A stretch of 22,945 nucleotides of DNA, from the IMG/VR virus record IMGVR_UViG_3300020125_000123, positions 1 through 22,945 of that record; one strand, written 5' to 3'. The notes under the pieces are model-generated. The model did no database searches and had not been told where the DNA came from. It worked only from the letters and a program-made list of their open reading frames with translations. Source of the DNA: a virus. Positions 416-16,806 of the stretch are shown piece by piece. The translations under genes and the position numbers were made by a program. The first letter of the stretch is position 1, and every line of letters starts with the position of its first letter.

Positions 416-742
416 ATGAAGAGAAAGTTCGCCCCATCCTACCGCTGTTCACTTTTCGCCCTCGCGCTGATCCTCCTAGCTCTCGCTGGGCCGCCAGCCA
501 TCGCCGGTCCGGCCGGAGGTACCCGCGTCCAGCTCCGAAACCAGTCCCCGGCCACCGATCCGGACTGCTATGAGTACGCGGCGGATTCGGCCTATGTCTA
601 CTACGACTGCGACGACTACGGGGGTCAGGTGTGCGCTGTCGCCAACGACGGCTCGTGGACCTGCCAGGTCCGGTGCGTCTGCTACACCTACAACAGCCAA
701 GGGGTTTGTTCGAGCTTTGGCCCTCCGGGATGCGCGACTTAG
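416..742 (+). CDS. Small secreted cysteine-rich protein
   Basis: The product is 108 residues. The start is supported by a GGGAG ribosome binding site 7 bases upstream of the ATG. The N-terminus is a clear Sec-type signal peptide: basic MKRK, a hydrophobic core at residues 12-25, and an AIA cleavage motif at 28-30. The mature part is about 78 residues and contains eight cysteines plus a Tyr/Asp-rich segment (YVYYDCDDYGG). The even number of cysteines suggests a small disulfide-bonded periplasmic or extracellular protein (inference). I do not recognise a named family. Its stop codon overlaps the start of the next small gene. It sits beside another signal-peptide gene (935-1321) and converges on the virion operon. 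Phage-encoded exported proteins of this kind may act in host-envelope modification, exclusion of other phages or lysis, but nothing in the sequence chooses between these. Confidence 0.7.
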   Translation: MKRKFAPSYRCSLFALALILLALAGPPAIAGPAGGTRVQLRNQSPATDPDCYEYAADSAYVYYDCDDYGGQVCAVANDGSWTCQVRCVCYTYNSQGVCSSFGPPGCAT

Positions 743-858
743 CCACCGCGGGGAAGAAAACCTTCGCCGCCCTAGCGGCCATCCTCTGCGCCGCCTTCCT
801 GCTCGCCCTCTCCCTGGCGGCCTGCTACCTGGCTACGTTGCCGGGCGCCTGGCGGTAG
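730..858 (+). CDS. Very small membrane protein or lipoprotein candidate
   Basis: This is a 42-codon frame starting at ATG 730, which overlaps the stop of the preceding gene (TAG at 740-742) and so could be translationally coupled. The frame is also open further upstream from a GTG at 631, but that part lies entirely inside the preceding gene. The peptide has two lysines at residues 9-10, then a hydrophobic stretch at 12-31 ending in LAAC (29-32), a good lipobox match. If processed there, the mature lipoprotein would be only 11 residues, far shorter than typical Rz1-type outer-membrane spanins. A simple single-pass membrane peptide is the alternative. No strong Shine-Dalgarno sequence is visible. 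It lies between two genes for exported proteins, which supports a role at the envelope. Function is not assigned. Confidence 0.4.
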   Translation: MRDLATAGKKTFAALAAILCAAFLLALSLAACYLATLPGAWR

Positions 859-890
859 AATAGGCGCCCCGCTTCACCCCCGTGCCGGGG
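843..890 (+). other. Two adjacent small hairpins after the micro-lipoprotein gene
   Basis: GGGCGCC at 843-849 pairs with GGCGCCC at 863-869 across a 13-base loop that contains the TAG stop at 856-858. A second hairpin, CCCCG-TGC-CGGGG, follows at 878-890. Neither is followed by a T-run, so these are at best weak terminator or mRNA-processing structures. They occupy the gap before the next gene at 935. The pairing is seen directly; the function is inferred. Confidence 0.3.
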
Positions 891-934
891 ACAATCCCTC
901 GCGCGGTTACGTCTCTTTTGAGAGGAGATCACGT

Positions 935-1321
935 TTGAAGACTACCCTGATTGCCCTCGTCCTCGCCGCCTCTTGCGGCCCCGCGTTCGCTGCTGAGAAC
1001 GTGTTCACCCTCGGTGGAGAGGTCGTGGACGTGGTGCTCGTGCCGGACGGGGCGAAGGCGTCCGAGGCTGACCCCTCGGCCCCATGTCCAGCTGGGAGTG
1101 ACAACTTCGCGACCATGTACCTGCGCGTCTCGACCGGAGAGATCGTGCCGGTCACCTGTTCCTTCGCGCTGGCCTGCACCTGTTGGGCCACGCCCTTGCA
1201 TTCCTCCGTCGCGATCTCGGGCGTCATGGGCGCGGCGTCTTTCGGTTCTGCCCCCGAGGATGTTGTGCCGTTGCTCCTGGCGCAGACCATCCGCCGCCCG
1301 CAGATCACCCGCCGCCGCTAG
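935..1321 (+). CDS. Small secreted protein with signal peptide
   Basis: The product is 128 residues from a TTG start. This start is chosen because GAGAGGAG lies 7-8 bases upstream and because the frame then opens with a textbook signal peptide: MKTT, a hydrophobic core at residues 5-13, and AFA or FAA before a cleavage site at 19/20. The mature protein has four cysteines, two of them in the motif ACTC, a predicted beta-rich first half (FTLGGEVVDVVLVPDG), and a basic tail ending in RRR. I do not recognise the family. The stop codon TAG occupies 1319-1321 and shares the CTAG palindrome with the stop of the convergent last gene of the virion operon. It is the third exported product in the left plus-strand cluster. 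Confidence 0.65.
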   Translation: MKTTLIALVLAASCGPAFAAENVFTLGGEVVDVVLVPDGAKASEADPSAPCPAGSDNFATMYLRVSTGEIVPVTCSFALACTCWATPLHSSVAISGVMGAASFGSAPEDVVPLLLAQTIRRPQITRRR

Positions 1322-1947
1322 CCGTGCACCCTAGGCACCACGCTATCGATCACTAGGCCCGTTCCGTCCTCGCTTCCTGCCTGGAGGACCGGGACGGGTG
1401 AGGTCGCGCCCAGGGAGAGGAAGCTCCCGCTGTTGGCGGCTACTAAGCGAGGCTCCGGGGTCGATAGGTCTAGGTGCGGGTAGACAGCCCGTAGTTCAGC
1501 CTGGTAGACCGTGACCGAGAAGATCGTGCCGTCGTCGGGATGGGTGAAGCGGTACCGGAGATTCGTAATGTCTCCGATCGATGCCGTGACGACGCGGGTA
1601 AACTGCGCCGGCCCCGCGCTGGTGACGCTCATGCCCACCGTCTCAAGCACGGTCAACCCCTCCAGCAGCTCCCACGTCACGATCCTGGCGCCACCCGATG
1701 AATAGGCGGCGGCCGCGTAGCAGCTCATCAGGTAGGACTCGCCAGCGCCGAGAGCGGTAGGCGTTGAGAGCGTGAACGTCACGGCTCGCGTAGGCGCTGG
1801 CGAGACGGCGTATGAGATAACCGAAATCCAGTTGGAGAGGTTGAGCGTCGCCTCGTTGATCGAGGAGAAGAGCGGCGAAGTCGCGCCGGTCTCATTCGTC
1901 CACCCGTCCAGGTTGACCAGGTCAGAATTGGGCCGTCCGATCGCCAT
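1318..1947 (-). CDS. Beta-sandwich virion protein, likely tail fibre or tip component
   Basis: The product is 209 residues and is the last gene of the virion operon. Its composition is typical of a jelly-roll or carbohydrate-binding-like domain: alternating beta-strand patterns, rich in Thr, Ser and Val, with almost no charged helices. From about residue 36 to 155 (from TLNLSNWISVISY to RYRFTHPDDGT) it resembles the shape of CBM-like beta-sandwiches found in phage adhesion proteins; this is a fold impression, not a family match. GAGGGG precedes the ATG, and the upstream gene's TAG lies in the same leader. Its position after the hub, spike and fibre genes fits a host-recognition role. No enzymatic motif is visible. 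Confidence 0.6.
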   Translation of the reverse strand: MAIGRPNSDLVNLDGWTNETGATSPLFSSINEATLNLSNWISVISYAVSPAPTRAVTFTLSTPTALGAGESYLMSCYAAAAYSSGGARIVTWELLEGLTVLETVGMSVTSAGPAQFTRVVTASIGDITNLRYRFTHPDDGTIFSVTVYQAELRAVYPHLDLSTPEPRLVAANSGSFLSLGATSPVPVLQAGSEDGTGLVIDSVVPRVHG

Positions 1948-1950
1948 GGC

Positions 1951-2739
1951 CTAACCCCTCGCGATGAGCTGCGGAGACCACAGAAGCGAGGTCGTAGAGG
2001 GGGCGAAGCCGAGCCGCACCAGCTTGACCGAGCCGCCAGCCGTGACCGTTACCGGGAGCGCCCCGGATGTCCAGGAGAGCATGTTCCCGGACGTGCCCAG
2101 GAAGTAGACGGCGCCAGCCGTGAGAGATGAGAGGCCGGTAATCAGGCCGGTGCCGACGTGGTAGCCAAGCGCCGAGAGGTAGGCGAGGAGCGAGAGTTGC
2201 GCATCCGTGTCAGTATTCCCCGCGTTCGCCATGGTGTTCGCCGAGGCCCACCGCACCGCCTTGCCGACCGTGCCCCCGGTCCAGTCGCCGTCCGTGCCGG
2301 CTCCGGCGGGAATCAGCCCGAGGGTCGCGGAAGCATACTGCCCAGCTGATTGGACGCCGATGCTGGCGCGGAAGGCGGCGGCATAGGGCGCGAATTCAGA
2401 GCCTCCGTTGGGGGCGTGCACGCTACCCGGCAGCACGAGGACATTCTGCGCCCCGGCCCATGACACGGGGGATGCTCCGCCCGCCGACGTCTCTGCGCGA
2501 GAGTACCAGCTCATGACCGCGATGCCGCCCGTCACCACGACATCGGCATAGCCTCGCTCGAAGTTCACGCCCCCGTCATCCTGCCGGATGCAATGGACGC
2601 GCGAGCCGGTCGGCACGCTAGACCACGGACGGTAGGTTCCCCCGGCAGGCGTGGCCAACGTCCCCGTGATCGTCCAGGGTCCGGTCCCGGTCGTGGAAGT
2701 GATCCCGGCGACGTCCGGCGGAGAGGTGATGTCGGTCAC
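1951..2739 (-). CDS. Tail fibre-like protein
   Basis: The product is 262 residues from a GTG start whose GTGA overlaps the preceding stop codon. The N-terminal 100 residues (TSTTGTGPWTITG, then a one-strand-at-a-time beta pattern ending NVLVLPGS) match the N-terminal module common in tail fibre proteins of metagenomic and proteobacterial phages. The C-terminus (GLITGLSSLTAGAVYFLG, then VKLVRLGFAPSTTSLLW) matches the terminal beta-module that closes many phage fibre and virion-surface proteins. A shorter central part at about residues 100-190 contains the segment ASATLGLIPAGAG. It is predicted to be a virion adhesin or a support for one. These are remembered family patterns, not alignments. 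Confidence 0.65.
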   Translation of the reverse strand: MTDITSPPDVAGITSTTGTGPWTITGTLATPAGGTYRPWSSVPTGSRVHCIRQDDGGVNFERGYADVVVTGGIAVMSWYSRAETSAGGASPVSWAGAQNVLVLPGSVHAPNGGSEFAPYAAAFRASIGVQSAGQYASATLGLIPAGAGTDGDWTGGTVGKAVRWASANTMANAGNTDTDAQLSLLAYLSALGYHVGTGLITGLSSLTAGAVYFLGTSGNMLSWTSGALPVTVTAGGSVKLVRLGFAPSTTSLLWSPQLIARG

Positions 2740-3590
2740 TTCAACTCCTTGTAGGCCAGCGTGAACGTGCTCTCCCCCCAGCTCTCAGGGATCGGGATGG
2801 CCGTCAGCGAGTCGCGCGTGCCGTAGACGAAGTGATCCATGTACCGCGAGGTCGCGCCCAACCGGGTGATGACGGCGAACGGGTCATGTACGCCGACCGT
2901 CTCTTGGAGCGCCACCCACTGATCCTGCACCTCATCCGCGGCGGTCGCCCCGCGTGCCTGGAGAACGATCTCCCGTAGCCGCATGATCGGGCGGGGCTGC
3001 GTGTGCCGGGCGCCTGCGACACTGATGGTCTCCCGGAGTTCCTCATCGGCGCCGAAGTTCGGCTGCTGGCGAATGCCAGAGGTGGGGACGTAGCCGGGTG
3101 ACGGGAAGATCACCCCGACATCTAAGAAGCCATCCGAGTTGGTCGGATCCGAGAACACAACGCGGACGAAGGGCTCGGTCCGCTGACTCCCGAGGTCTAT
3201 GTAGGTGTGCCGCTTCGGGAAGCGGTTCCCGTTGTTCTCGACCGTGAGCCAGAACAGTTGCGCCGGGATGTGAAGAGAGGCCGTGCCGGCACTCGCCACG
3301 GAGACCTGCGTCGGGCCGGTGAGCACCTCGACTGTGCCCGTCCTGGTGATCGTGCTGGCGATGATGATGATGTAGCGGTAGGAGGAGATGCCGGTGTCGG
3401 CCACCGCCGCCAGCGCTAGCGTCAAGTCAAGCGTCGCCTCTGCCTGCGTCAGGTCGAGGAATCGGCAGTTCTTCCCCGGCTGATGATGCAGGAGGTTCGT
3501 CACCGGCATGGAGGATGGCGTAGGCCCCGGCGTGGTGACGGACGCGAGCTTGGCTAGCTCGAGGTTCGCGATGAGGGACTGATCCGGCAT
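2736..3590 (-). CDS. Tail tip/fibre-associated structural protein
   Basis: The product is 284 residues from the ATG at 3590, five bases after the spike gene's stop. The frame is open further upstream to 3737, but that extension lies inside the spike gene and encodes an Arg-rich stretch unlike a folded protein, so it is rejected. The protein is beta-rich at 60-200, including RYIIIIAS, GTVEVLTGPTQVSV and an FVRVVFSDP strand. A more helical C-terminal part contains MRLREIVLQ and a final ESTFTLAYKELK. The general plan, a beta domain followed by a region scanning strain-to-strain variable surfaces, resembles tail-tip proteins that attach fibres. I cannot name the family. The gene sits between the spike and a fibre and overlaps the latter by GTGA. 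Confidence 0.6.
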   Translation of the reverse strand: MPDQSLIANLELAKLASVTTPGPTPSSMPVTNLLHHQPGKNCRFLDLTQAEATLDLTLALAAVADTGISSYRYIIIIASTITRTGTVEVLTGPTQVSVASAGTASLHIPAQLFWLTVENNGNRFPKRHTYIDLGSQRTEPFVRVVFSDPTNSDGFLDVGVIFPSPGYVPTSGIRQQPNFGADEELRETISVAGARHTQPRPIMRLREIVLQARGATAADEVQDQWVALQETVGVHDPFAVITRLGATSRYMDHFVYGTRDSLTAIPIPESWGESTFTLAYKELK

Positions 3591-3595
3591 ATTCG

Positions 3596-5959
3596 CTAGC
3601 CTACCGCCAAACAATAGAACTTGTATGAGGTCGAGACGGTGAGGGCGGTAGCGACACCGCCGACTAGATTTGTCCAGGTGAACACCGGGGCGGTCGAACT
3701 CTCGGTCGTAAGCTGAATGGTCGCGCCGTTGCCCCACGCCGTGGCGCCCTTAACGAGCATGCAGACGAGCGGCGCGGACGCATAGGTCTTGGCGAAGGTA
3801 ACTGTGCAAGTTCCCGTTGAGCCGGGAGATCCGGTGCCTGTTGGCATGGTGACGAGAAAATGCTGATCCGTACTGCCGGCAGCGATGGACGGCGCCGTCG
3901 GCGAGGTGCCCGTGCCAGTGCACGCGACGGTCGGGGACGCCGCCGACTGGAGGAGGAGGTGACCGCTCGCGTCAATCACCATCTTCCGGGTGAGCGTAAG
4001 CGTCCCGATGTCCACCGTCGAGAAAAAGATATTCATGCCATGCGCGCCGGTCGTCCAGTTCTCCGCAGCTTCCGTGCCTACCGTAGCCGCCGCACTTGAC
4101 CACGCGCTGCCGTCATAGCCTTCCCAGCTCAGGCCGCCGTCTCCTGCCGCTGCCGTGAGGGCTGTCGGGCTAGCGGCCGTTCCGGCTGCCCGTCGCAGGT
4201 CGATACCCGGCAATCCACCAGCCCCAAAGGAGTCAACAGTGAGGCGCGTCGCCGTCGCGTCGGCGTTGCCAACGTGGAGCAAGCTCCCGGTTACTGGCGA
4301 GGGGAGCGCTGCGGCGTTCGCGGAAACCTCAAGCGGTACGTCCGGGACGGTGGCACCGATCCCGACTCGCCCCGCAGCCTCATCTACGGTCAGCGGCCCG
4401 AAGAACATCTGACCCTTCGTCGCGTGACTCGTGCTATGAAACGTGCAGTCCTCTCCCGATCCCGTGCCGCAGTAGATTGTCATGCCGCCCGCAGCGCCGA
4501 GGAGATGAAAATAGCTGTCGGGTGCCGCGACCCCTAGGTTGTCGAGGGTCCGTACGGTGGCGGAGAGGGTCGCGAGGTTGTTCAACGCACCAGTCAAATT
4601 GCCGGTGAGGTCGTTGCCGACGAGGTTCACGTTCGTGCTGGTCGCGTCCACCGCCAGTCCGTACTTTTGAGTATTCGAGCCGCCCGCAATATTGCCGGAG
4701 CGGACGCCTGACACTCTGATTCCGGTTGCGCCCGTCACAGCGATTCCGGAATAGGTTCCGCTTGACTGTTGACTGTTGGCGCTCATGAAGCCGCCTTCGA
4801 TGGCTATGTCGCTAGCGGTCGTGACGCTGATGCCATCGCCTCCATTGTTTATGATCCTCGGGGAGACGATCCGCACGTTGCCCACGCTGCCAGACGATCC
4901 GTTGATCACCACGCCGTGTCCACTCGCCGTGGTCGTGCCGTTGCTACTTCCCCACGGCGCGACAATCGTAATGCCGTAGACGCTGCCGCCTGTCGGCACG
5001 ATCTTGTAACCGTCGGTCAAGTTAGAATCAGTCAGCGTGTTATAGAAGCTCAACCATGACACGGTAGCACCCGCCGCCGGGGCAATTAACACTCCGTGAT
5101 CAGAGCTGACTGATTCGATATCAGAGAACCAGTCGCCCGCACTGCCCGTGATTTTGATTCCGACGCCGTTCGAGGTGCGGTTGCCTTGAATCCAGATATG
5201 AGAGAAGTATCGATCATTGCCGCTCGCCAGGCTCAGCCCGGTGAACGCTCCTGTCATCGTCATGGTGACGTTATTCACATACCAGAGCGCGGAAAGCGCC
5301 GAAGTCGTAGCACCGAAGGTTATCCCATTGCCGCCCGCGGCCATGAAGATTTTGATATTCTCGATTGCCCCCTCGCCGCAACCATCGATCACGAGCTGGG
5401 AGCCGGCCGTCTTCGTTATGGCTGAATTGAGGCTGAGATCGCGCACTCCGCCGCACGGAGAGAATGGTGCCGAAGTGTTGCCAAACTTCAGTAGGTCGCC
5501 AGCGGCGGACGCGTTGTGTATGACGGTCGTGGTCGGGCCGGAGCCGCTCAGCCACACCCCCGCACAGGTGACGGTAAGCGTCGAGGTCACCCTGTAATCG
5601 CCGGCCGGCAGGAGCACCCTGCCTCGACCATTGGTGCAAGCCGCCGCAATGGCCGCCTGAATAGCCGCAGAGTCATCGGCGACGCCGTCTCCAACGGCAT
5701 TGTAGGGCGACGCCCTTACGTTGAAGGTTGGCAACCGCGGGTCCGTCGTGGCGACGGTGCCGAGCAGTAGGTCGGCCATCGTTGTGTATTTGACGACGGA
5801 GGAAGCGTTGTCCTGAATTGGTATGCATGCGGTAGTCGCGGGTGAGGAGTTGTGCGCCATGTTGCAGATCTCGACCGTCGTCGCCCCGAGCAGCGCGGAG
5901 CCGCCGAGGAGCGTGAGCGCGAGCGCGGTCCATATGCCGCGCCTAGAAGATGCCCGCAT
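3596..5959 (-). CDS. Pectate-lyase-fold tailspike with an N-terminal signal-like segment
   Basis: The product is 787 residues. The ATG at 5959 is chosen because GGAGGG lies 7 bases upstream; the frame is open to 6034 but has no comparable site. Residues 1-25 look like a Sec signal (basic RR, hydrophobic TALALTLLGGSALL), which is unusual for a virion spike. Residues 80-105 (FNVRASPYNAVGDGVADDSA) match the start of the Pectate_lyase_3 parallel beta-helix, which appears to continue to about 480. Around 525-545, RVGIGATVPDVPLEV resembles the repeat found in trimerising tail-fibre stalks. Residues 678-787 form a Cys-containing terminal beta-domain seen in other phage fibres. There are about twelve cysteines. 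The catalytic residues cannot be identified by eye. The likely role is binding or cleaving surface polysaccharide. It overlaps the hub gene by 17 bases. Confidence 0.8.
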   Translation of the reverse strand: MRASSRRGIWTALALTLLGGSALLGATTVEICNMAHNSSPATTACIPIQDNASSVVKYTTMADLLLGTVATTDPRLPTFNVRASPYNAVGDGVADDSAAIQAAIAAACTNGRGRVLLPAGDYRVTSTLTVTCAGVWLSGSGPTTTVIHNASAAGDLLKFGNTSAPFSPCGGVRDLSLNSAITKTAGSQLVIDGCGEGAIENIKIFMAAGGNGITFGATTSALSALWYVNNVTMTMTGAFTGLSLASGNDRYFSHIWIQGNRTSNGVGIKITGSAGDWFSDIESVSSDHGVLIAPAAGATVSWLSFYNTLTDSNLTDGYKIVPTGGSVYGITIVAPWGSSNGTTTASGHGVVINGSSGSVGNVRIVSPRIINNGGDGISVTTASDIAIEGGFMSANSQQSSGTYSGIAVTGATGIRVSGVRSGNIAGGSNTQKYGLAVDATSTNVNLVGNDLTGNLTGALNNLATLSATVRTLDNLGVAAPDSYFHLLGAAGGMTIYCGTGSGEDCTFHSTSHATKGQMFFGPLTVDEAAGRVGIGATVPDVPLEVSANAAALPSPVTGSLLHVGNADATATRLTVDSFGAGGLPGIDLRRAAGTAASPTALTAAAGDGGLSWEGYDGSAWSSAAATVGTEAAENWTTGAHGMNIFFSTVDIGTLTLTRKMVIDASGHLLLQSAASPTVACTGTGTSPTAPSIAAGSTDQHFLVTMPTGTGSPGSTGTCTVTFAKTYASAPLVCMLVKGATAWGNGATIQLTTESSTAPVFTWTNLVGGVATALTVSTSYKFYCLAVG

Positions 5960-8309
5960 CGATAGACCCTCCGGCGCCGTCACTGATGGACGCGCCCGTT
6001 CCGGGGCCGGCGGAGATTGACGTGCCCCCGACATGCTTCAGCTCGCCCGTCACCTCGCACCCGTGCGTGCCCGTGCCGTCATCGGCCAGGACCGCTGTCA
6101 CGATGACGTTCTTGCCGTCGTCGTAGTCCAGCACCGGCATCGTGATCGTCAGTACCTGTCCGACGTAGAAGCGCGGCACCGGCTCAGAGTATGGCAAATA
6201 ATCCGTCCGCCGCGGCTTGGAGCGCCAGGCGGCCTCTAAGGCGGCCTGCGTCTGGGCATCAGCCGCAGAGTCGAGCACGGTATCCCGTACCGCCAGCTCA
6301 GCCGCTGAGTCGGCCCCAAGCACGGCAAGATCCTCGGGGGTGGAGACCGAGCGGAATTGCTGGCCGAGATCCTGTTTCTCGGCCTCAGTGAGCAAGGGGT
6401 CGAGCGCCGTGGGCTGCTGCGTCTGATAGTAGGGCCGGTAACGCACCAGGGCCGCACGGGCCGCCGGGAGCGTGAACACGGGCTTGATCCCGTCGAGTGC
6501 GAAGTCGTCAGGCCCCGCCTCCGCCGAGGGGATAAGGCTCTCCGGCGGCGCGATCACCCCGAAGGCGAGGGCGCCCATGGGATTCGAGCTGCGCCAGCCC
6601 TTGACGCTGGCTAGGTACTTGAGCAGCACCGCGTCCACGCTCACAGGGTCGAGGCCAGAGAGCACGCCTACGCCGTCCGTGGCAGGCAAGGCCGCAGCGC
6701 TCGCCGCGTCGAACTCGCCAGCGGTCAGTGCACCGTCCCCGGTCGTGATGCCCGCCACGCAGCCCGGCAGGTCGGTTGCGGCGGTCAGATAGGGGTCGCA
6801 CGTCAACTGCCCGACCGGCGATGAACCGAGCCGGATGAGGCCCATCGAGGGGATTTCCATGTACTCGCCTGTTGCGGGCGTCGCCGCCCAGGGATCGGGA
6901 TAGGTGCCCTTGAGCGTCCAGACCCGGATGCCGCGATCCTTCAGGAGTGGCCCGGAGACGTCCATCGCTAGATGGTCGAACTCCTCCGCGACCTGATAGA
7001 TACGGTCGATCGCGGAGAGCAGGACGGGGTTGATTTCCCGGACGATCCCGCGGCCCTTCGGGATGCACTTGCCTTGGAGCTCGACACCGCCTGTCAGGCT
7101 GTCAACCCAGGTGCATGAGGCAAGGGTAAGGTTCGGTCCCGCGCCGGCCGACTCATAGGCGATCGTGCCGGTAGCTTCCGTCAGCGACCACTGATAGACG
7201 AGCCCTGCAGTGCCGGACGGTGCCCGCTGGCCGGTCCACTGCGCGATCTCCACCGTGCTTAGGGCGTGCGACCATATCGTGATCTCATCCACGTCGCCCA
7301 AGAGGAAATTGGTGGCGAAGTCCGGCAGGCGCCCGACCGCGAACGAGGTTAGGACCGAAGAGACGTAGGTGCCGGCGATTGATGCCTGAGCGATCGGCGT
7401 GTCCGGGGAGGCGCCGTCGTAGAGGCTGATCCTCATTGCCGCGGTATCGAGCACTCCCCAGAGGTCAATCCAGTTGTAGGGCCCGAGCACGCCGGCCGCG
7501 GTGGCCGAGTATCCGTTGCTCGAATCGTCCCGCACCGACCATGTGACGGAGTTCCCCGGCCCGGTATGGAGTCGCCGCTCTCCGGCGCCCGTTGAGTTGT
7601 GCCAGCCGACGATATGCTCATCCGTTGAGATGGCTGCTCTGGGCCGGAACCGGATGCCGATGGTCATGCCGCCGATCGGGCAGGATGTCGCGCCGGTGTA
7701 GAGGTAAGATGCCGCGCCGTCCAAGCGCACGCATGCCCCGCGGCCCGCGTAGCGCTTGGTCTGATAGTCCCGAGATTGCAGCTTGGCGACGACATCCTGC
7801 AAGCCTATCGACATCTGGTCTACCTCGGGGTCGAGCGCCGTTGAGACTCCGTGGAACACTTCCGCAAAGCTGCTCAGGGGCCATGATGGATCGCCCATGA
7901 AGTGTCGGGCTGAAGCGTTCTTCCACCCGAAACTGAGCCATTGCGTCAGCTCGCGCCGCGAGTCAGCGATGACGCAGTTCCCGTAGGTCGAGGCGCCGGT
8001 GTTGACCTCACCGTTGGACAGGATTCGTGATTCGCGATTCGGTGGCTGGACTAGATGGCCAATGAAGAGCTGATGCGCTGCGGCCTCACCAGTCGGGAAG
8101 GTGTCTCCGCCTGCGGTTTTGAACCATCCGCCCGAAACGAACAGGTCGATCGGGATTCCGGTAACCGGATTGTACGGTTGCAGCCAGAGGAGGTGCTCAA
8201 ACAGAATGTGGAGATTGCCCGCGATGAGCGCCGTGACCGGCGAGGCCATGGCGCCGCTCGTAAGCGAGCCGCCGTAGGTCAATCCTCCGTAAGGCGTCGC
8301 GCCGTACAT
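5943..8309 (-). CDS. Tail-tip/baseplate hub protein with inserted LamG-like domain
   Basis: The product is 788 residues; its ATG overlaps the tape measure stop as TGATG. Residues 90-190 (ILSNGEVNTGASTYGN..., then MSIGLQDVVAKLQSRDYQTKRYAG) and 405-545 (GGVELQGKCIPKGRGIVREINPVLL..IYQV, then GLIRLGSSPVGQLTCDP) look like the two halves of a conserved phage tail-tip protein. In its relatives, as I remember them, an 'RYAGTG ... DLKGxPKP ... NVxPVLVDxxxLIYQVHD' block is nearly continuous. Between them, residues 194-402 (VRLDGAASYLYTG to VDEITIWSHALSTVEIAQW) form a LamG/concanavalin-like jelly-roll. The C-terminal part, about 640-788, is mixed and ends in a Gly-rich tail. The gene follows the tape measure, as hub genes do. 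The hub would cap the tail tube and carry the spike and fibres. Confidence 0.72.
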   Translation of the reverse strand: MYGATPYGGLTYGGSLTSGAMASPVTALIAGNLHILFEHLLWLQPYNPVTGIPIDLFVSGGWFKTAGGDTFPTGEAAAHQLFIGHLVQPPNRESRILSNGEVNTGASTYGNCVIADSRRELTQWLSFGWKNASARHFMGDPSWPLSSFAEVFHGVSTALDPEVDQMSIGLQDVVAKLQSRDYQTKRYAGRGACVRLDGAASYLYTGATSCPIGGMTIGIRFRPRAAISTDEHIVGWHNSTGAGERRLHTGPGNSVTWSVRDDSSNGYSATAAGVLGPYNWIDLWGVLDTAAMRISLYDGASPDTPIAQASIAGTYVSSVLTSFAVGRLPDFATNFLLGDVDEITIWSHALSTVEIAQWTGQRAPSGTAGLVYQWSLTEATGTIAYESAGAGPNLTLASCTWVDSLTGGVELQGKCIPKGRGIVREINPVLLSAIDRIYQVAEEFDHLAMDVSGPLLKDRGIRVWTLKGTYPDPWAATPATGEYMEIPSMGLIRLGSSPVGQLTCDPYLTAATDLPGCVAGITTGDGALTAGEFDAASAAALPATDGVGVLSGLDPVSVDAVLLKYLASVKGWRSSNPMGALAFGVIAPPESLIPSAEAGPDDFALDGIKPVFTLPAARAALVRYRPYYQTQQPTALDPLLTEAEKQDLGQQFRSVSTPEDLAVLGADSAAELAVRDTVLDSAADAQTQAALEAAWRSKPRRTDYLPYSEPVPRFYVGQVLTITMPVLDYDDGKNVIVTAVLADDGTGTHGCEVTGELKHVGGTSISAGPGTGASISDGAGGSIDAGIF

Positions 8310-11300
8310 CAGGCCGCCACCCTTTCATTCGGTCTGAGGCGACCGCCGCCGCCGGTTGGACGCAGCAGCTCAAGGTTCCTGTTCAGCGAGCTTTGTACCG
8401 CCTGGAGGGTGTCCGAGATTGTCTTCAAGTGCTGGACGGCCCTCTTGTGCAGGTCGATCGTAGTCGCCGCGTTTGTGGCCGCATCGATCCCGCCCTGGCG
8501 GATGACCTTGTAGATATCGCCGTCTCTGCCGAGGGCACCCTTGACCGCGTCGAGCTGATCGCCGGTGTCGCGCACGACATGCAGAGGCGGGGGCGGCACG
8601 ATCCCGGAGCCGGAGACGGTAGGCGGCTTGTAATCGCTCCCGCTCCCTCCGGCTGCGTATCCAACGTTGGTCGGGAAGAGCGCCAAGTTCTGGGCCGGAT
8701 TCCCGGTGAGCGTCGCCTTCAGCCGGTCAGCCTCTGCCGACACGGAGAGCACCTCGGCGGCGAAGGCCCCGGTCCGGCCGAAGGTAGCGCTGAAGAGCTT
8801 GAGATAGGCGTCCGCCTGTTGGGTGAACTGGTCGCGCGCCGTCGTGTCGCCGCCGATTCCCCTCGCGAGCAGATCCTCTAGCTGCCGCTTCGACTCCGCT
8901 ACCTGGGCGCGCGGGGTGAGCGGCGAGGTCTCTGGATTCGTGAGCAGGCTCTGCTGCCACTGCGTCAACTTCTCCGCTGCGGCCTGGTTCGCCTGCGCGG
9001 CCTGAAGCTGTGTCTGCGCCGCGCTCGACTGAGTAGCCGCCGCCTTGCTCGCCGACGCCGCCGCGGCAGGCATCGTGTCGGGCAGACTATAGATGATCTT
9101 GCCGAGCCGGTTGTATGCCTCCAGGGTGAGCGTGCCGGCCGTATAGGCCAGCGCCAGCTCTTCCTTCACCCGCGCGATGTCCAGCTCATACTGGACTTCC
9201 TTGTAGGCGGCGAGGGTCTGCTCATCCGTGATGTAGCCCTGAATCTTGCCGAAGATCGAAAGCTCGGTGGCATCCGACAGCTCGCTCATGTAGCCGGCGA
9301 GCTGATCCGCGCTGATCCCGAGTTCGTCCATGTGCGACTTCAGGAAGTCAACTGCCTGCCCTTCGGTCTGATACTTCAGCACGAGCGCGGCGGATTCGAT
9401 GCCGAGATCTGAGGCGACCTGGAGGCCGAGGATACGGTGCATCTCGGTGAATGCCGCCGTGACGCCGCGCACGGAAAGCGCGAGCTGTGCGGCGACGGAG
9501 AGCAGATCCTTCTGCTGTGCCTCTTCATCGGCAAGCGTCTGGGCGTATGCGCTGCGCGAGCCAGAGAAGGCGTCGCCCGCGAACGGAGCGAGCTTGACCT
9601 TCTCCTGCTGGGCGAGAACGTTGATTTCCTGCTGCTGCGCGACCGCGAGCTGCGCCAGGAGATCGGCGTGCTTGCCGGCCTTCTTGTTCAGGTCGGCGTA
9701 CTTCGTCGCCAGATCGGCGAGCGCCTTGCCTTCCTCGCCGAGCCGAGCGATGCGCGCCTGCTCTAACGCGTCACGCACCTCTTGCGCCGGATCAGTCCCG
9801 CCGCCCGCGCCCTTGCCCACCTTGCCGAGCCGTTTCAGCGCGTCCGCGAGTTCCTTATCCGAGATGAGCGTAATGCTATCGATGACGGCCTGCGCCGCCG
9901 CGATATTCGCAAGCGTGGCATCTAGCGCAGCCTGGAGGGCTCCCAGAGAATCGAGCGCCGCTCCGTCCACGGCGATGTCCGCCTGAACGCGGGCCTTGGC
10001 GAGATCGATATGCCCCTTCGTGGCGAGCTGCTCTGCCTTGAGCACCGCGATCTTTTGTTCTAGATCGACTTCCTTGAGCTTCAGGTCGGCAACGTCCAGC
10101 GCCTCCTGAGCCTTGATAAGCGTCGCCCGCTGATTGAACGCGGCGGCGTCCGCCTTCATTTGATCCGCAGGGCTCAGGTTGCGATTGATGCCGAGGATCT
10201 TGTCTTTTTCCTGTTGGATCGCGAGCGCGAACTGCGCAATCGATTTGGTCGTATCGATTCCGAGTGACACGTCACGCTGCATCTCGACAAAGAAGTCAGA
10301 GACCGCCTTAGACAATGCCTGAGCCACCTGCGGCACGCCGTAGTTCGCGACCTTCATCGCGAAATCGATGTCCGATTGCAGGGCGGTCATGTCCGTTGCG
10401 GTCGTCTTCTTGAGGGCCGCAAGCACCTCGGGCGGGAGGTGTCCGCCGGACGTGGCGGCTTGCTTGACCGCTTCGCTGATCCCGAATGAGATCGCGTCCT
10501 GCATGCTGCTGAAGGTACGGACGACGGTGCCGACCACGACGCGTATAATGTTGTCGCGCACCTTGATATCGATGAGCGGGATGCCCTCCAGGAAGAGGCC
10601 GAGCGAGGCCATCTCGGCCTGGAGGCCCTTGAAGATGTTGGTGAGCGCATCCTTGACGGCGCCGTTGAGTTGGTGCGAGGTCTCACCGATGACAATGTTG
10701 CCGGAGGCCGTCAGGGATGCAGAGGCGGAATCACCAGCCTTGGAGATGAGGGCACCCAGGATAGAGCCGATCGCGCCGCCGATCGAGCCGCCAGTCGCTG
10801 CGCCAGGCCCCGCGCCCACGCCGCCCGCGAAGGCCCCGATGATGGCCCCGATGATGCCGCCGATGATCGTGCCCACGATGCCGCCGACGCCGGCGTAATT
10901 GCCCTCCAATCTGCCGCCAAGGGCGGACGCGCCGCCGGTCTTGGATGTGGCGCCGACGCCGAGGTCCGTAAGGAGCGTGGCGCCTACGTTGATCGCGGCC
11001 GCGGCGCCCAACGCCTTCTGCATTTTGCTCGCGGCGGTCGCGGCTGCATCAATCGCGGTGATCAGCTTGCCCATGTCCGCCGCGATCTTGCCGATAGCTG
11101 TCGAGGAGCCGCCAAGGGAGGTCGATAGGGTGTCGAAGGCGCTCGCGAGATCGGTCCGCAGCTCATGCGCTGCGGCACGCGCCCGCTCTTCCGCAGAGGC
11201 CGTCAGCGCCGCAGAGTCGGCCCGCCGTTGATAGGCGGCGATTTCCGCCTCGATATCCGCCAGGACCCCGCCGTCCTTTTTCTGGATCGCGATGGCCTGC

Positions 11301-13684
11301 TCATGGATGAGTAGCGCCTTGGACGCGTCATCCAGCAAGTTGTACTTCTCAAGGACGGCGACGACGCTCGCGCCGTACTTCTGCGTCGCCTCTATGAGTT
11401 CGTGGTTGTCCTTACCCTTGGCGATGATCGCGTCGATCTGCTTCTCAGCGGCGACGCGACGATCCTCCTCGGCCGTGGTGCTCTTGAGGAATTCCAGGAA
11501 GGTGCGCGCGCCGATGATCCGCGCCGCAGCGGCATCCTTCTCCTCCTGCGTCTTTGGCAGTTGCTTGCGGAATGCCGCTTCGATCTCTAGCTGAACAGAT
11601 AGATCTCGGGATGCTTGCGTGCTTTGCGCCTTGGCATCTGCGAGCGCGGCTTCCGCCTCGCGGCTTGCGATTGAGAACTGAAGATTCTCTTGCAGGATCG
11701 CTAACCCGTCAGCGGTCGCCTGCTTATCATCGATGCGCTTAGCCACGAGGGCGGTCAACTTCGCGGTTTGCTCATCGAAGGCCGCGCTCTCACTCTTGAT
11801 CTTGGCCGCAATGTTGGCCGCATCTGCGCTCTTGCCGAGTTCTAATAGCTTACTGCGCGAGTCCGTAAGCTTATCGATCTCCGCTCGCTGCAACTTCGTT
11901 AGCTGCAACACCTCCGCATCGATCGCCGCGTGCCGCTCCTGGGCACGCTTCGCTGTCTCATAGGCAATGATGCCGCCGCCAACCGCCGCCAGAAGTTTCG
12001 CTTGCCCATCGGCGGCGAGCTGCGCCTTAGTCGTTAGGTCGGCCAGCCCTTCGGAATAGGACCGTACCGCGGCTAGCGCTGCGCGCAGCGCGTCGCCGGT
12101 ACCCTTGACCTTGTTCGCAATGTCATCCTCGCCGCGTGCATGCGCGGCATGCACCTTTGTGTTGCCCTCCAGCGCCTGCGAATTGGCTGCGAGATCAGCG
12201 AGGATCGCCGCATTGGCGTCATCGTAGGTCTTGGCTTCCTTGCGCCGCGCGTCGGCGGCCATGCCCAGGTTAAGGGCGACCTCCGCCTGATACCTGGAGA
12301 CTGCGGCGATAGCTGGCCGCCACCGATCCCCGCCGCCGAGTGCAGATGGGAGATTTGAAATCCCCTCCATGATGTGCTGCACGGCAGCGAGGCTATTAAC
12401 CGCGATGAACTTGAAGGCTTCGATGATCCCTGCGGCCAAATTATTTGTTTCGAATTGCCACTCGTTGTAGGCGAGCGCCACTATCGAAACAGCGCCCCGG
12501 ATGGCCTGCCCGATTGTGTGACCGACCTCCTTGACCTTCTCGCCCAGCGCATCCCATCCGCCCGCGTTGTTCAGCGTTCCGGTCAATATGGCCTGTAGCG
12601 TCGGGATGACCTCGCTGGCGATGGATTCCTTGAAGAGGTCGAGCTTGCTCTTCGCGATATTGATGCTGCCGCCGAGGGTCTGGGAGAAGGCCAGCGCGGC
12701 GCCCTCCGTGTGCTGCTGTAGGAGGCCAAGAATCGTTGACTGATACTCCGCCACCTTCCCGGTGTCGATCATGTCCTGGAGGGTCTTACGCTGGCCGGCG
12801 GACAGGTCGATACCAACATCCTTAATCCGGGTCAGCGACCGAGCGTTGCCCTCTAGCAGGGGGCCGAGAAGGGTTGCAGAGGTCGAGAGATCTTTGCCGG
12901 TCGCCTGCGCATAATCCAGGACGGCCTTCGTGGCGACGGGGAACACGTCATGGCCGATTCGCGTATACCGCGTCAGGATGCCCTCGGCGGCTACGATCGC
13001 ATCTTTGCTGCGGCCGGTCACGTTCACCAGAGATTCAGCGGTGCGAATCAGCTCGGCGGAGGAATAGCCAGCCGCCGCGCCGTTACTGCGCAGAGAAGCC
13101 TCTAGCTGAGAGTAGGTCTCCTGCGTCTTGATGCCATCGGCTATGATGTCCTTGAGGATTTTCAGCGCTTCAAGTCCACCGACGAGCGCCACGACCCCGG
13201 CCGCGAGAGCGAGCACCGCCGGGAGGGCGGCGCCGCCTAGCGATCCCGCGAGGGATTCGAGCTGACCCGATAGGCCACCAACCTTCTGCCCCATCTGGTC
13301 TACGGCCTGACCGCCAAAGCCGCAGACCTCGGTTAGCTTTGAGATGAGACCAGAGAACGTCTGTACGCCGCCCTCGGCGTTCTGGAACTTCTGCTGTGCC
13401 AGGCCGAGCTGCGCGTTGTAGGTCTGGTGGGTGATAATCCCGCGCTCTAGCGCCTGCCCGAGGGTGCGCTGCGCGTTCTCATACTTGACGTGCCCGGCGA
13501 CGACGGGGTCTAGACTGGAGGCGAGGCGGCGATAGGACTCCTCGATCTTGTTCGTCTCGGTGCCGAGCGCGCGCATCGCCGCGGCGGCGGAGTCTCCGCT
13601 CCGCTTCGTGTCCTCGACACCCGTCACCAGGCCCTTCGAATCGAAGAGCAACCGGACGGTGCGGGTGACGGTGTCGCCGCTCAC
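8309..13684 (-). CDS. Tail tape measure protein
   Basis: The product is 1791 residues from a GTG that directly abuts the TAG of the T frame; GGAGG lies about 11 bases upstream. Residues 50-100 (RRLASSLDPVVAGHVKYENA, then an ITHQTYN stretch) match the N-terminal region of lambda-type/TMP_2 tape measure proteins. Hydrophobic segments occur at about 151-178 (ALPAVLALAAGVVALVGG) and in a long Gly/Ile-rich block at about 925-982. Much of the rest is Ala/Lys/Glu/Gln-rich helix with coiled-coil character. At roughly 1.5 angstroms per residue, the helical ruler would set a tail about 270 nm long. The Gly-rich block probably inserts into the host membrane during DNA delivery. The position after the frameshifted chaperone genes is the classic one. 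No peptidase or lysozyme domain is evident. Confidence 0.93.
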   Translation of the reverse strand: MSGDTVTRTVRLLFDSKGLVTGVEDTKRSGDSAAAAMRALGTETNKIEESYRRLASSLDPVVAGHVKYENAQRTLGQALERGIITHQTYNAQLGLAQQKFQNAEGGVQTFSGLISKLTEVCGFGGQAVDQMGQKVGGLSGQLESLAGSLGGAALPAVLALAAGVVALVGGLEALKILKDIIADGIKTQETYSQLEASLRSNGAAAGYSSAELIRTAESLVNVTGRSKDAIVAAEGILTRYTRIGHDVFPVATKAVLDYAQATGKDLSTSATLLGPLLEGNARSLTRIKDVGIDLSAGQRKTLQDMIDTGKVAEYQSTILGLLQQHTEGAALAFSQTLGGSINIAKSKLDLFKESIASEVIPTLQAILTGTLNNAGGWDALGEKVKEVGHTIGQAIRGAVSIVALAYNEWQFETNNLAAGIIEAFKFIAVNSLAAVQHIMEGISNLPSALGGGDRWRPAIAAVSRYQAEVALNLGMAADARRKEAKTYDDANAAILADLAANSQALEGNTKVHAAHARGEDDIANKVKGTGDALRAALAAVRSYSEGLADLTTKAQLAADGQAKLLAAVGGGIIAYETAKRAQERHAAIDAEVLQLTKLQRAEIDKLTDSRSKLLELGKSADAANIAAKIKSESAAFDEQTAKLTALVAKRIDDKQATADGLAILQENLQFSIASREAEAALADAKAQSTQASRDLSVQLEIEAAFRKQLPKTQEEKDAAAARIIGARTFLEFLKSTTAEEDRRVAAEKQIDAIIAKGKDNHELIEATQKYGASVVAVLEKYNLLDDASKALLIHEQAIAIQKKDGGVLADIEAEIAAYQRRADSAALTASAEERARAAAHELRTDLASAFDTLSTSLGGSSTAIGKIAADMGKLITAIDAAATAASKMQKALGAAAAINVGATLLTDLGVGATSKTGGASALGGRLEGNYAGVGGIVGTIIGGIIGAIIGAFAGGVGAGPGAATGGSIGGAIGSILGALISKAGDSASASLTASGNIVIGETSHQLNGAVKDALTNIFKGLQAEMASLGLFLEGIPLIDIKVRDNIIRVVVGTVVRTFSSMQDAISFGISEAVKQAATSGGHLPPEVLAALKKTTATDMTALQSDIDFAMKVANYGVPQVAQALSKAVSDFFVEMQRDVSLGIDTTKSIAQFALAIQQEKDKILGINRNLSPADQMKADAAAFNQRATLIKAQEALDVADLKLKEVDLEQKIAVLKAEQLATKGHIDLAKARVQADIAVDGAALDSLGALQAALDATLANIAAAQAVIDSITLISDKELADALKRLGKVGKGAGGGTDPAQEVRDALEQARIARLGEEGKALADLATKYADLNKKAGKHADLLAQLAVAQQQEINVLAQQEKVKLAPFAGDAFSGSRSAYAQTLADEEAQQKDLLSVAAQLALSVRGVTAAFTEMHRILGLQVASDLGIESAALVLKYQTEGQAVDFLKSHMDELGISADQLAGYMSELSDATELSIFGKIQGYITDEQTLAAYKEVQYELDIARVKEELALAYTAGTLTLEAYNRLGKIIYSLPDTMPAAAASASKAAATQSSAAQTQLQAAQANQAAAEKLTQWQQSLLTNPETSPLTPRAQVAESKRQLEDLLARGIGGDTTARDQFTQQADAYLKLFSATFGRTGAFAAEVLSVSAEADRLKATLTGNPAQNLALFPTNVGYAAGGSGSDYKPPTVSGSGIVPPPPLHVVRDTGDQLDAVKGALGRDGDIYKVIRQGGIDAATNAATTIDLHKRAVQHLKTISDTLQAVQSSLNRNLELLRPTGGGGRLRPNERVAA

Positions 13685-14161
13685 CTACTTCTGCGCCTCC
13701 GCCTGGATACTGTCCATGACCGCCCAGAGGTCTAGCCAGATCTCCCAATCATCGGGATCGACTTCACGGTACTCGAAGTAGGAGCGGGCGGCGGTGAAGG
13801 GGATCGGGCCCGGAAGCGCGCCCCCCATAGGGAGGATGATCGTGCTCCGATTGCCGGCGAGGCGACGCCAGCCGGTCCAGACCTCGCCGGCTAGCGAAGG
13901 CGGTTCGGAATGTTCCCGGTAAATCTGATAGGCGGGATCTAGGAAGCACGGCTGCGCCCGCCCGGCCTTCCAGCCGTTGACCTCCGCCAGGAGCACGGCG
14001 AGGTCTTCTCCAGTCCGGCTCGCCCGCTCCATGGCCTCCTGCCTTCTATGCTGGTAGATGGTCTCGGTTTCTTGCTCGAATACCAGCTTGGACTTGAGAG
14101 CGCCTCCGTACCGTACCCACCAGCGAAACGCTGAGGGCGACTCAGGGGAGGCGCCGATCAG
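13685..14161 (-). CDS. Tail assembly chaperone T extension, expressed by -1 frameshift from G
   Basis: This frame has no plausible start of its own: the only candidate, a GTG at 14182, lies inside G and has no Shine-Dalgarno sequence. The heptamer G GGA AAC just before the G stop places the ribosome exactly in this frame (GGG AAA CTG), so it is read as the second half of a G-T fusion of 319 residues (161 plus 158). The T part contains an amphipathic start (KLIGASPESPSAFRW), an RRQEAMERA helix, and the C-terminal DPDDWEIWLDLWAVMDS. In lambda-like phages the G and G-T proteins coat the tape measure and recruit tube subunits in a set ratio. The T stop is directly followed by the tape measure start. 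Confidence 0.82.
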   Translation of the reverse strand: MIGASPESPSAFRWWVRYGGALKSKLVFEQETETIYQHRRQEAMERASRTGEDLAVLLAEVNGWKAGRAQPCFLDPAYQIYREHSEPPSLAGEVWTGWRRLAGNRSTIILPMGGALPGPIPFTAARSYFEYREVDPDDWEIWLDLWAVMDSIQAEAQK

Positions 14162-14643
14162 TTTCCCTTGGCGCCCTCCCACCGGGCGTCTCGCTCACGC
14201 GTGAGGCGGTTCCTGGCCGTGATCCATGCATCGTTGATCTCATCGATCTCCAGGAGGGCGACGCACATATCGACGTCTAAGGAGCCGTCCGGCTTCGTGT
14301 CCGAGATCGGCTGCTCGTCCTCGCCGATGAAGTCACTGAAGCCGCCGAAAGTCGTTCCGACGGAGACCACGCGCGCGAGCCGGATGTTCTCGCGGCCGAG
14401 CTTCTCCTCCTCGGCGTCATTCATGACCGTCTTGCCGGACGTGGCGAGCGTGCCTAGCTTCTCCATCTCCGCCGCCTCCGCCTTGGTGAGCTTGTCGGTG
14501 AGACCGAGAGCCGCCCGGGCGTCGCGGATCGCGTTGAGGTAGGCGGTGAAAAACTCCTGCCCCTGGGCGCGCACCTTGATTGAGCCGCCGCCGTCTAGCG
14601 GGACCGTCGTCCACTTCTTGAGGCCAGAAAGCTTGACTGCCAT
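14158..14643 (-). CDS. Tail assembly chaperone G
   Basis: The product is 161 residues. The ATG is preceded by GGGAG with 5-base spacing and lies just after the tail tube gene. The protein is predominantly helical and charged, with a beta-like start (MAVKLSGLKKWTTVPLDGGGSIKV), a KLTKAEAAEMEKLGT helix, and an acidic region EDEQPISDTKPDGSLDVDM before the C-terminal helix (INDAWITARNRLTRERDARW). Position, length and the slippery sequence at its very end identify it as the short form of the G/G-T chaperone pair. Family identity is inferred from context and the frameshift, because these proteins diverge strongly in sequence. The G form ends at TGA 14158-14160, immediately after the slippery AAC codon. 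Confidence 0.82.
   Translation of the reverse strand: MAVKLSGLKKWTTVPLDGGGSIKVRAQGQEFFTAYLNAIRDARAALGLTDKLTKAEAAEMEKLGTLATSGKTVMNDAEEEKLGRENIRLARVVSVGTTFGGFSDFIGEDEQPISDTKPDGSLDVDMCVALLEIDEINDAWITARNRLTRERDARWEGAKGN
14161..14167 (-). other. Programmed -1 ribosomal frameshift site (G GGA AAC)
   Basis: On the minus strand the end of G reads AAG GGA AAC TGA. The heptamer G GGA AAC fits the X XXY YYZ rule with X=G and Y=A, in the correct phase relative to G, and lies directly before the stop codon. A one-base slip back reads GGG AAA CTG and continues through T to the TAG before the tape measure. Lambda uses the closely related GGGAAAG. I did not identify a clear downstream pseudoknot or stem by eye. 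Confidence 0.85.
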
Positions 14644-14653
14644 AGATCTCCCG

Positions 14654-15871
14654 TTAGGTCAACAGAACCCTCTCGAACATGGTGTGGGTGGCGTCCGCGT
14701 GAGCCATCCACTCGAACTCGAAAATGTCCTCTCCGGTCTGGGCGACGCCCTGTCCCGGCGTGCCCTTGCTCGGGTCGAGGCCGGCGAAATACCAGTACTC
14801 CAAGGCGCCGTCCGGTGCCTGCCAGGCCCACCCGAGGGACGCGACCGTGTTCGGGTTGCGCGAGTCGGTGAGCAATGCCCGCGCGTCGGCGTGGTCGTTG
14901 CAGACCTTCAGTGACACCTTGATATCGAACAGGTCGTCCACGAAGACCACGAGCGGCCCGAGTGCCCCAGCGGCGCCCGACACCTTGCGGGGCCGGGTGA
15001 TCGCAACGCTCAGCTCCTGGACCCTGACGTTCGGATACAGCGCTCCGGAGTAGAAAAGTCCCCCGCCGCCGCCCGTTAGCAACTTCGCCCCGAAGCCGAT
15101 ATTGCTGTTCATCGGATACTGCGCGGCCGCCGCGGTCGTGGTGTTCGCGAGAGCCGCCGTGATCGCAGCGATATTCGGCCCCATGAGCTGCCAGGTCAGG
15201 TCCGGCGCGCCGGGGTGCGCGAATTTCGCCGTGACGCCATACGCCGACAGGTAGGTGAGCACGCTCCCCGTGAGGGCGGTCGGGTGGAACATCTCGTAGG
15301 TGCCGGTGAGCAACGAATTCCCGAGCCGGAACCGGCTGGCATAGCTCACCGAGATGCTGCCGGGGTTGGCCTCCGCGACGAGAGTGCCATAGGCGGTGTC
15401 AAGCGTCAGATTGACCGTCGAGTTGACGGTGACGCGACTGATGAACTTAACCGGATTGCTTACCCACGGTCCAGTCACATAGACGTAGTCGCCGACCAGG
15501 AACGGCCACGTACCGGAGACGAGGGTGAGCTTGTTCCCGGACGTGATGCTGATGTTCGTGCCGGTCACTGCGGCGGGACCGGCCACGGCGTCGGCGCACA
15601 TCACCTCTCCCCACTGCTGGTTATAGTGGGAGTGGAGTAGATCCGACGAGGCGGCAACCGAGGGCGTGACGAGATCCGTAGCGATGTTGGCGGGCACCTG
15701 CCCGCTGCCGCTCACGTTGCCGGCCTTGGTGCGGGTCACGTCGCCGCCCGCGGGAGTAAAGGTCTTGAATGGAAGGCTCTGCATCGCGCCGGCCGGAGTG
15801 GTTCCGGGCGTGACCTCGCGGATGGAGCGCACGGTGTACCCACTGAGGGTCGTCGGGATCGGATTGGTCAT
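14654..15871 (-). CDS. Major tail tube protein
   Basis: The product is 405 residues. The ATG is preceded by AGGAG, whose first bases come from the upstream stop (TAGGAG). The N-terminus, residues 14-40 (VRSIREVTPGTTPAGAM then SLPF), is the characteristic start of the Phage_tube_2-type tail tube family, in which an 'E-x-x-x-G-T-T-P-A' motif begins the first strand. The remainder is beta-rich, with an inserted segment at about 100-175 (NKLTLVSGTWPFLVGDYVYV) that may form an additional surface domain. The conserved-looking DDLFDIKVSLKV lies near 315-330 and a FEFEWMAHAD strand near the end. It should polymerise around the tape measure under control of the adjacent G/G-T chaperones. It is longer than minimal tube proteins (about 150-250 residues), consistent with the two-domain class. 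Confidence 0.82.
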   Translation of the reverse strand: MTNPIPTTLSGYTVRSIREVTPGTTPAGAMQSLPFKTFTPAGGDVTRTKAGNVSGSGQVPANIATDLVTPSVAASSDLLHSHYNQQWGEVMCADAVAGPAAVTGTNISITSGNKLTLVSGTWPFLVGDYVYVTGPWVSNPVKFISRVTVNSTVNLTLDTAYGTLVAEANPGSISVSYASRFRLGNSLLTGTYEMFHPTALTGSVLTYLSAYGVTAKFAHPGAPDLTWQLMGPNIAAITAALANTTTAAAAQYPMNSNIGFGAKLLTGGGGGLFYSGALYPNVRVQELSVAITRPRKVSGAAGALGPLVVFVDDLFDIKVSLKVCNDHADARALLTDSRNPNTVASLGWAWQAPDGALEYWYFAGLDPSKGTPGQGVAQTGEDIFEFEWMAHADATHTMFERVLLT

Positions 15872-15880
15872 GTGCGTCTC

Positions 15881-16387
15881 CTAGAGTCCTGGATTATCGA
15901 AATCGCGGGGCGGCGGATCGCGCCGCAATTCTGGCGCGACCCCTACCCACCAATCGCTGAGCAAGTCCGCGACGGAGTCAACCTCTTGGAGGTTAAGGGG
16001 CGGTGCGTTGCCGTCCTGGATTGCAACGCGATGTATTAGCTCAATGCGCCACTTCAACTCGTTCCACTCGTCCCTTTGCGGCGCTACGCTTCGGGCGACC
16101 ACGGCCCCCAGAAGCCCGGCTGTAAGGGCGGGCAGAACCTTCATGCGCCATTCCGCGCCACCCCCAATCGTCGCGACGGGACCCAGCCGCCCAAGGCTTT
16201 CGCTAGCGATCTCCGTCACCCGCTCGCTGCCAGTCGATCGGTCGAACGACCAGAGGATCAACTTCTCGCCATTCCATGCCTCTTGGATTCTGGCCTCATG
16301 GCCATTGAACGCGAGCCATGTACCCGGCGGCAGCTCCTTGGCCGTTTGTTCCACGAAGGGCGGGGGCGAGGGCAAATAGAAGCTCAC
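15881..16387 (-). CDS. Hypothetical protein between neck and tail tube genes
   Basis: The product is 168 residues from a GTG start; GTGA overlaps the preceding stop and AGAGG lies 8 bases upstream. The first half looks like a small beta-barrel (LPPGTWLAFNGHEARIQEAW, then KLILWSFDR). A hydrophobic helix at about 85-102 (LPALTAGLLGAVVARSVAP) follows, then a helical tail with DEWNELKWRIELIHR and LLSDWWVGVAPELRR. I do not recognise it. Its position between the gp10-like protein and the tail tube suggests a neck or tail-related accessory role. The single hydrophobic segment could be a buried helix or a membrane anchor. No signs of transfer are evident. Confidence 0.65.
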   Translation of the reverse strand: MSFYLPSPPPFVEQTAKELPPGTWLAFNGHEARIQEAWNGEKLILWSFDRSTGSERVTEIASESLGRLGPVATIGGGAEWRMKVLPALTAGLLGAVVARSVAPQRDEWNELKWRIELIHRVAIQDGNAPPLNLQEVDSVADLLSDWWVGVAPELRRDPPPRDFDNPGL

Positions 16388-16797: not shown

Positions 16798-16806
16798 AGG
16801 AGTGCC

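Follow-up and report, generated by a model that had tools for sequence, protein, structure and literature searches.

The window, by which we mean the whole stretch of DNA that was analysed, is a complete virus record of 22,945 bp in which no tRNAs are found. Profile searches identify its minus strand as a siphovirus head-to-tail operon. On the plus strand, three small open reading frames, referred to here as ORF1, ORF2 and ORF3, abut this operon and converge on it. The start of ORF2 lies inside ORF1, with an overlap of 13 nt, and the sequence CTAG at 1318-1321 is common to the stops of ORF3 (1319-1321, plus strand) and of the last tail gene (1318-1320, minus strand). The features of the window are as follows.

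416-742, plus strand: ORF1, 108 aa, with a predicted Sec signal peptide at residues 1-30 (cleaved between PAIA and GPAGG) and a mature part of 78 aa that contains 8 Cys and is rich in Tyr
730-858, plus strand: ORF2, 42 aa, with an n-region, a hydrophobic segment of about 21 residues, a lipobox LAAC (Cys32) and the tail YLATLPGAWR
859-934, plus strand: leader of ORF3, with a small GC hairpin at 877-890 and the RBS GAGGAG
935-1321, plus strand: ORF3, 128 aa, with a TTG start behind this RBS, a predicted signal peptide (cleaved between AFA and AEN) and a variable mature domain
1318-1947, minus strand: closing gene of the operon, 209 aa
1951-2739, minus strand: tail-operon gene
2736-3737, minus strand: tail-operon gene (phrog_8610)
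3596-5959, minus strand: pectate-lyase tailspike-like protein, whose longest ORF extends to 6034
5943-8309, minus strand: LamG-containing tail protein
8309-13684, minus strand: tape measure protein (tblastn to annotated tape measures)
minus strand: tail terminator (phrog_179)
minus strand: head-tail adaptor Ad1 (phrog_477)
minus strand: major head protein (phrog_212)
minus strand: scaffold (phrog_206)

Pfam, PHROGs, NCBIfam and PADLOC give no match above cut-off for any of the three ORFs, and a tblastn search of 50,697 phage records returns nothing for ORF1 or ORF3. An earlier note on this DNA had described three unrecognisable genes in series opposite the virion operon and converging on it, two of them encoding signal-peptide proteins, the first with a distinctive Tyr/Cys-rich mature domain carrying eight cysteines. 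That description holds. The note had also called for homologues and their neighbourhood, and one relative is found, IMGVR_UViG_3300020118_000164 (hereafter G001), an IMG/VR contig of 93,367 bp with a closely related tail block; deeper viral scans yield this same 93-kb contig alone, and searches of bacterial genomes return nothing for either ORF1 or the tail protein. G001 carries all three genes with their order and orientation preserved, on the strand opposite the tail operon and next to its 3' end. The counterparts referred to below are these.

L002:5001-5327, G001: homologue of ORF1
L002:6537-6896, G001: Ga, a homologue of ORF3
L002:7912-8253, G001: Gb, a homologue of ORF3
71467-73779, G001: pectate-lyase tailspike-like protein

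ORF1 starts with MKRK and a basic n-region, followed by a long hydrophobic core and the cleavage site, and it harbors no lipobox. An N-terminus resembling a signal peptide arises in 0.9% of residue shuffles of ORF1 and in 2.9% of those of ORF3. The protein is 97% identical to its homologue in G001, and 10 of the 13 substitutions between the two genes fall at codon position 3, giving a dN of 0.016-0.018, a dS of 0.12-0.14 and a dN/dS of 0.12-0.13. The mature part is predicted to form a six-strand beta meander. Structure prediction, which the earlier note had recommended, gives poor models, with a mean pLDDT of 59 for ORF1 and 38.5 for ORF3 in AlphaFold2; the better part is confined to residues 41-80 of ORF1, where values of 73-81 are reached. 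A fold search with ORF1 finds no match at E < 0.1 in PDB or BFVD, and its plasmid matches (E 0.8-0.9) are attributed to chance. For ORF3 an OB-fold is a conjecture from the strand pattern, its model being of too low a pLDDT to bear on the idea.

ORF2 is 90% identical to its counterpart, with start, stop, transmembrane segment and lipobox all kept. The lipobox is of the PROSITE type, sits at the end of the hydrophobic segment and is present in both phages. In the part of ORF2 that lies outside ORF1, GC by codon position is 0.62/0.62/0.92. Substitutions placed at random leave the segment as hydrophobic in just about 6% of sets, by a test devised post hoc. The substitutions are distributed 4/2/1 over the codon positions, and because they lack a third-position bias the coding evidence is weaker for ORF2 than for ORF1. 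The only family match is to YshB, which at 13.7 bits is well below the cut-off of 34. For the micro-lipoprotein that had been proposed here, the lipoprotein label is a motif match only; the 42-residue product is best described as a candidate membrane or lipobox microprotein.

ORF3 is only 33% identical to the relative. Its mature domain nonetheless aligns with that of Ga at a score of 92 (shuffles 27.8, sd 5.6) and with that of Gb at 71 (shuffles 27.9, sd 4.8). Window positions 838-969 are 88% identical to the leader of Ga. The ORF3 leader matches Ga through about codon 6, then Gb between about codon 8 and the onset of the mature domain; a single breakpoint fits 30 of the 33 informative sites, a result equalled by 1 in 20,000 shuffles. 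Further into the mature domain, ORF3 is nearer to Ga than to Gb. With a leader that combines both paralogues and a mature domain that sits nearer to one of them, ORF3 is a mosaic and belongs to a family that recombines. ORF3 also carries an alternative lipobox-like LAASC (Cys14) alongside its short signal peptide, and the lipobox pattern is present in ORF2, ORF3 and Gb, as it is in llp, cor and rtp45, but is lacking from ORF1 and Ga. Beyond the signal peptide there are four cysteines in ORF3, four in Gb and two in Ga, and any bonds between these, or between the eight of ORF1, are putative. A PDB sequence match of the ORF3 profile to ferrous iron transporter B (E 0.0058) was discarded because the signal peptide carries most of the alignment. 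No sigma70-type promoter or terminator pattern is found at the ORF3 leader, and Rfam gives no match above cut-off; the GC hairpin is kept in the relative with an altered sequence.

As all three are conserved in G001, ORF1, ORF2 and ORF3 are real, conserved genes, with a weaker case for ORF2 than for ORF1. The earlier note had proposed that an absence of homologues together with a Ka/Ks near 1 would mark the ORFs as spurious, and the opposite is found on both counts. That they are spurious or decaying is now very improbable indeed: the distribution of substitutions in ORF2 speaks for it, and against it stand the low dN/dS of ORF1, the homology of the ORF3 mature domain to Ga, and the high GC at the third position and retained transmembrane segment of ORF2. 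For ORF1 and ORF3 the idea is already refuted. The history of the locus has left a trace in G001, where two extra genes lie between ORF2 and Ga, and where the end of ORF2, LPGAWR-stop, occurs again, with three synonymous changes, directly before the Ga leader (L002:6442-6460), pointing to an insertion or exchange footprint.

The divergence between the two phages varies greatly along the tail block. Tail genes within 5943-17145 are mostly 93-99% identical at the protein level, including the LamG-containing protein at 95%; the exceptions are the middle and N-terminus of the tape measure and two smaller genes at 13685-14643 (34-66%). Closer to ORF3, the spike is common to both phages at its ends only (42-47%), with an unlike middle. 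The gene at 2736-3737 is 90% identical over residues 44-333. In the gene at 1951-2739 the N-terminal 149 aa are 56% identical and the C-terminus is unrelated; the counterpart in G001 ends in SHTHD/HSH motifs, which we take to be tail-tip-like. For the gene at 1318-1947 no homologue is detected in G001. These identities place ORF3, at 33%, in a divergent stretch together with the tail-tip genes, and ORF1, at 97%, outside it. This pattern, in which ORF3 changes along with the tail tip and the tailspike and ORF1 remains constant, is suggestive only, the comparison being one of two genomes.

Other features were noted in the two genomes. The tape measures (8309-13684 in the window, 62986-69096 in G001) are 53% identical over the N-terminal 135 aa and 93% over the C-terminal 1254 aa, and differ in their middle and in length (1791 aa against 2036 aa). 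At the DNA level, identity is 87-96% over much of the tail block, whereas the major capsid families differ, phrog_212 being found in the window (about 17.1-21.7 kb) and PF05065/phrog_10 in G001 (54.8-59.4 kb), which suggests an exchange of head and tail modules near the tail terminator. The tailspike-like protein has a Sec-type signal peptide at its N-terminus in both phages (MRASSRRGIWTALALTLLGGSALLGA; MRIVRTLGTATALALTLASAAAA), which is odd for a virion protein.

Small exported proteins located beside tail genes are known from several phages. In unrelated phages, cor occurs downstream of tail-fibre genes as part of a three-gene cassette, accompanied by two membrane-associated partners (PMC13164509). 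Llp, a lipoprotein of the periplasm that carries a Cys11-Cys58 disulphide, is bound to FhuA (PMC9586334), and Rtp45, with a Cys30-Cys38 disulphide, is bound to LptDE (PMC12685063). In the Drexlerviridae, cognate exclusion genes have been proposed to adjoin the receptor-binding genes (PMC8594841). On account of their location, export signals and cysteines, ORF1-ORF3 are tentatively read, by analogy, as a superinfection-exclusion cassette that would mask a receptor in the manner of Cor, Llp and Rtp45, a reading to which we give somewhat less than an even chance. The virion operon and ORF1-ORF3 would be expressed separately; of the three products, those of ORF1 and ORF3 would enter the periplasm and form disulphides as they fold, and that of ORF2 would remain in the inner membrane or be lipidated. 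ORF3, as the variable member, would bind the host envelope component used by the tail tip of this phage, leaving related phages and released progeny unable to re-adsorb, and ORF1 and ORF2 would serve as constant helpers, comparable to the pair of membrane-associated genes found with cor. A more specific version makes ORF3 a fast-diversifying, recombining family of periplasmic receptor blockers, the allele being matched to a co-exchanged tail tip and accompanied by a constant Cys-rich ORF1 and micro-lipoprotein ORF2, in a cassette unrelated in sequence to Cor and Llp; taken as a whole, this is unlikely.

The likeness to the known systems is one of place, export signals and cysteine content. In the window and G001, as in the records of T1, T5, N15, Rtp and HK022, the gene stands beside tail or receptor-binding genes. 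The Cor cassette (T1 ST30-ST32, KanT1, N15, HK022) similarly comprises a small exported protein at the tail-fibre end and two membrane-associated partners, and in the annotated record cor of T1 is placed opposite the tail operon and converges on it; its two partner genes, however, are on the tail strand, and Cor itself is a lipoprotein of 75-78 aa without sequence similarity to the present proteins, of which ORF1 is Cys-rich and lacks a lipobox. Since cor of N15 and HK022 shares the strand of the tail genes, orientation is not diagnostic. T5 llp also lies on the opposite strand, beside oad, the gene for receptor binding, and ahead of four single-TM ORFs, and its product is periplasmic with one disulphide (PMC9586334), but it is divergent from the tail gene rather than convergent, encodes 77 aa and shows no sequence similarity. 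In Rtp, the minus-strand pair rtp44-45 converges on a plus-strand gpJ homologue, and Rtp45 is a disulphide-bearing lipoprotein that blocks LptDE (PMC12685063); again there is no sequence similarity, and the 311-aa product of rtp44 bears no annotation beyond membrane protein. Against the exclusion reading, ORF1 and ORF3 are longer than the 75-78 aa of Cor and Llp, and both ORF1 and Ga lack a lipobox. No homology of the ORFs to Cor, Llp or Rtp45 is found in 72 pairings, a test of low power, in which the best (Gb with T1 Cor, p 0.002) is not significant after correction; hhalign of the ORF3 family with Cor gives a probability of 0.1%. The known exclusion proteins barely match each other pairwise (Cor with Llp p 0.04, Cor with Rtp45 p 0.09), so this comparison cannot decide.

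The earlier note had named exclusion, lysis and host-surface modification as possible roles, and these fare differently. Exclusion is favored by place, export, cysteines and the variation of ORF3, and ORF1-ORF3 may have a role in host-surface modification. A rival reading is an envelope takeover other than by receptor blocking, in which the proteins would be periplasmic inhibitors or modifiers (of a protease, a chaperone or a surface polymer) favoring phage production or spike release. Export signals and disulphide-capable cysteines fit this equally, as do the high conservation of ORF1 and its lack of covariation with the tail tip. G001 has, in addition, a proline-rich, probably exported 123-aa protein of no family (L002:4268-4639), encoded two genes upstream of its ORF1, which suggests an island broader than an exclusion gene. 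We consider such a takeover somewhat unlikely, as no enzyme or inhibitor family is matched and the position beside the tail tip and the variability of ORF3 are left unexplained.

Lysis genes usually include a small TM protein or lipoprotein together with periplasmic proteins, and the make-up of the locus would suit an accessory module of this kind, such as a spanin, a holin regulator or a lysis-inhibition sensor. Colicin-lysis-type small lipoproteins, which are bacteriocin release proteins, resemble the ORF2 precursor in its length and lipobox, but the mature part of ORF2 would be only 11 aa and no bacteriocin is linked. No endolysin is detected among the window genes scanned, and that of G001 (PF00959, phrog_7), together with two small neighbours that look TM-like, occupies 85.9-87.0 kb; it is about 6.5 kb away and its orientation is opposite to that of the ORF1-ORF3 unit (about 82.9 to 76.2 kb). 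With the endolysin on a separate transcription unit, lysis is rejected as the leading reading; ORF1, having no TM plus coiled coil, is also not spanin-like, and we regard the module as improbable. Only a small chance is likewise given to ORF1-ORF3 being partners that aid the export, folding or anchoring of an exported tailspike. The signal-peptide-like N-termini of both spikes, the adjacency of the genes and the joint divergence of ORF3 and spike argue for such partners, but the literature search found no precedent, and the spike also has tail PHROG matches, a virion protein normally not being exported.

If the superinfection-exclusion reading is true, receptor exclusion would have a positional signature, namely a small exported gene opposite the tail operon at its tail-tip end, and this would work where sequence search cannot. 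It would extend exclusion, proven mainly in coliphages, to uncultured phages, and would link each tail-tip allele to its blocking protein. Should it be untrue, the locus would still represent a conserved, probably exported gene family without known relatives. Further predicted signal peptides are found in virion regions of G001, namely on a collagen-like fibre (39317-42238), on a small protein after it (42253-42645) and on a 237-aa protein encoded right after the major capsid gene (56379-57092).
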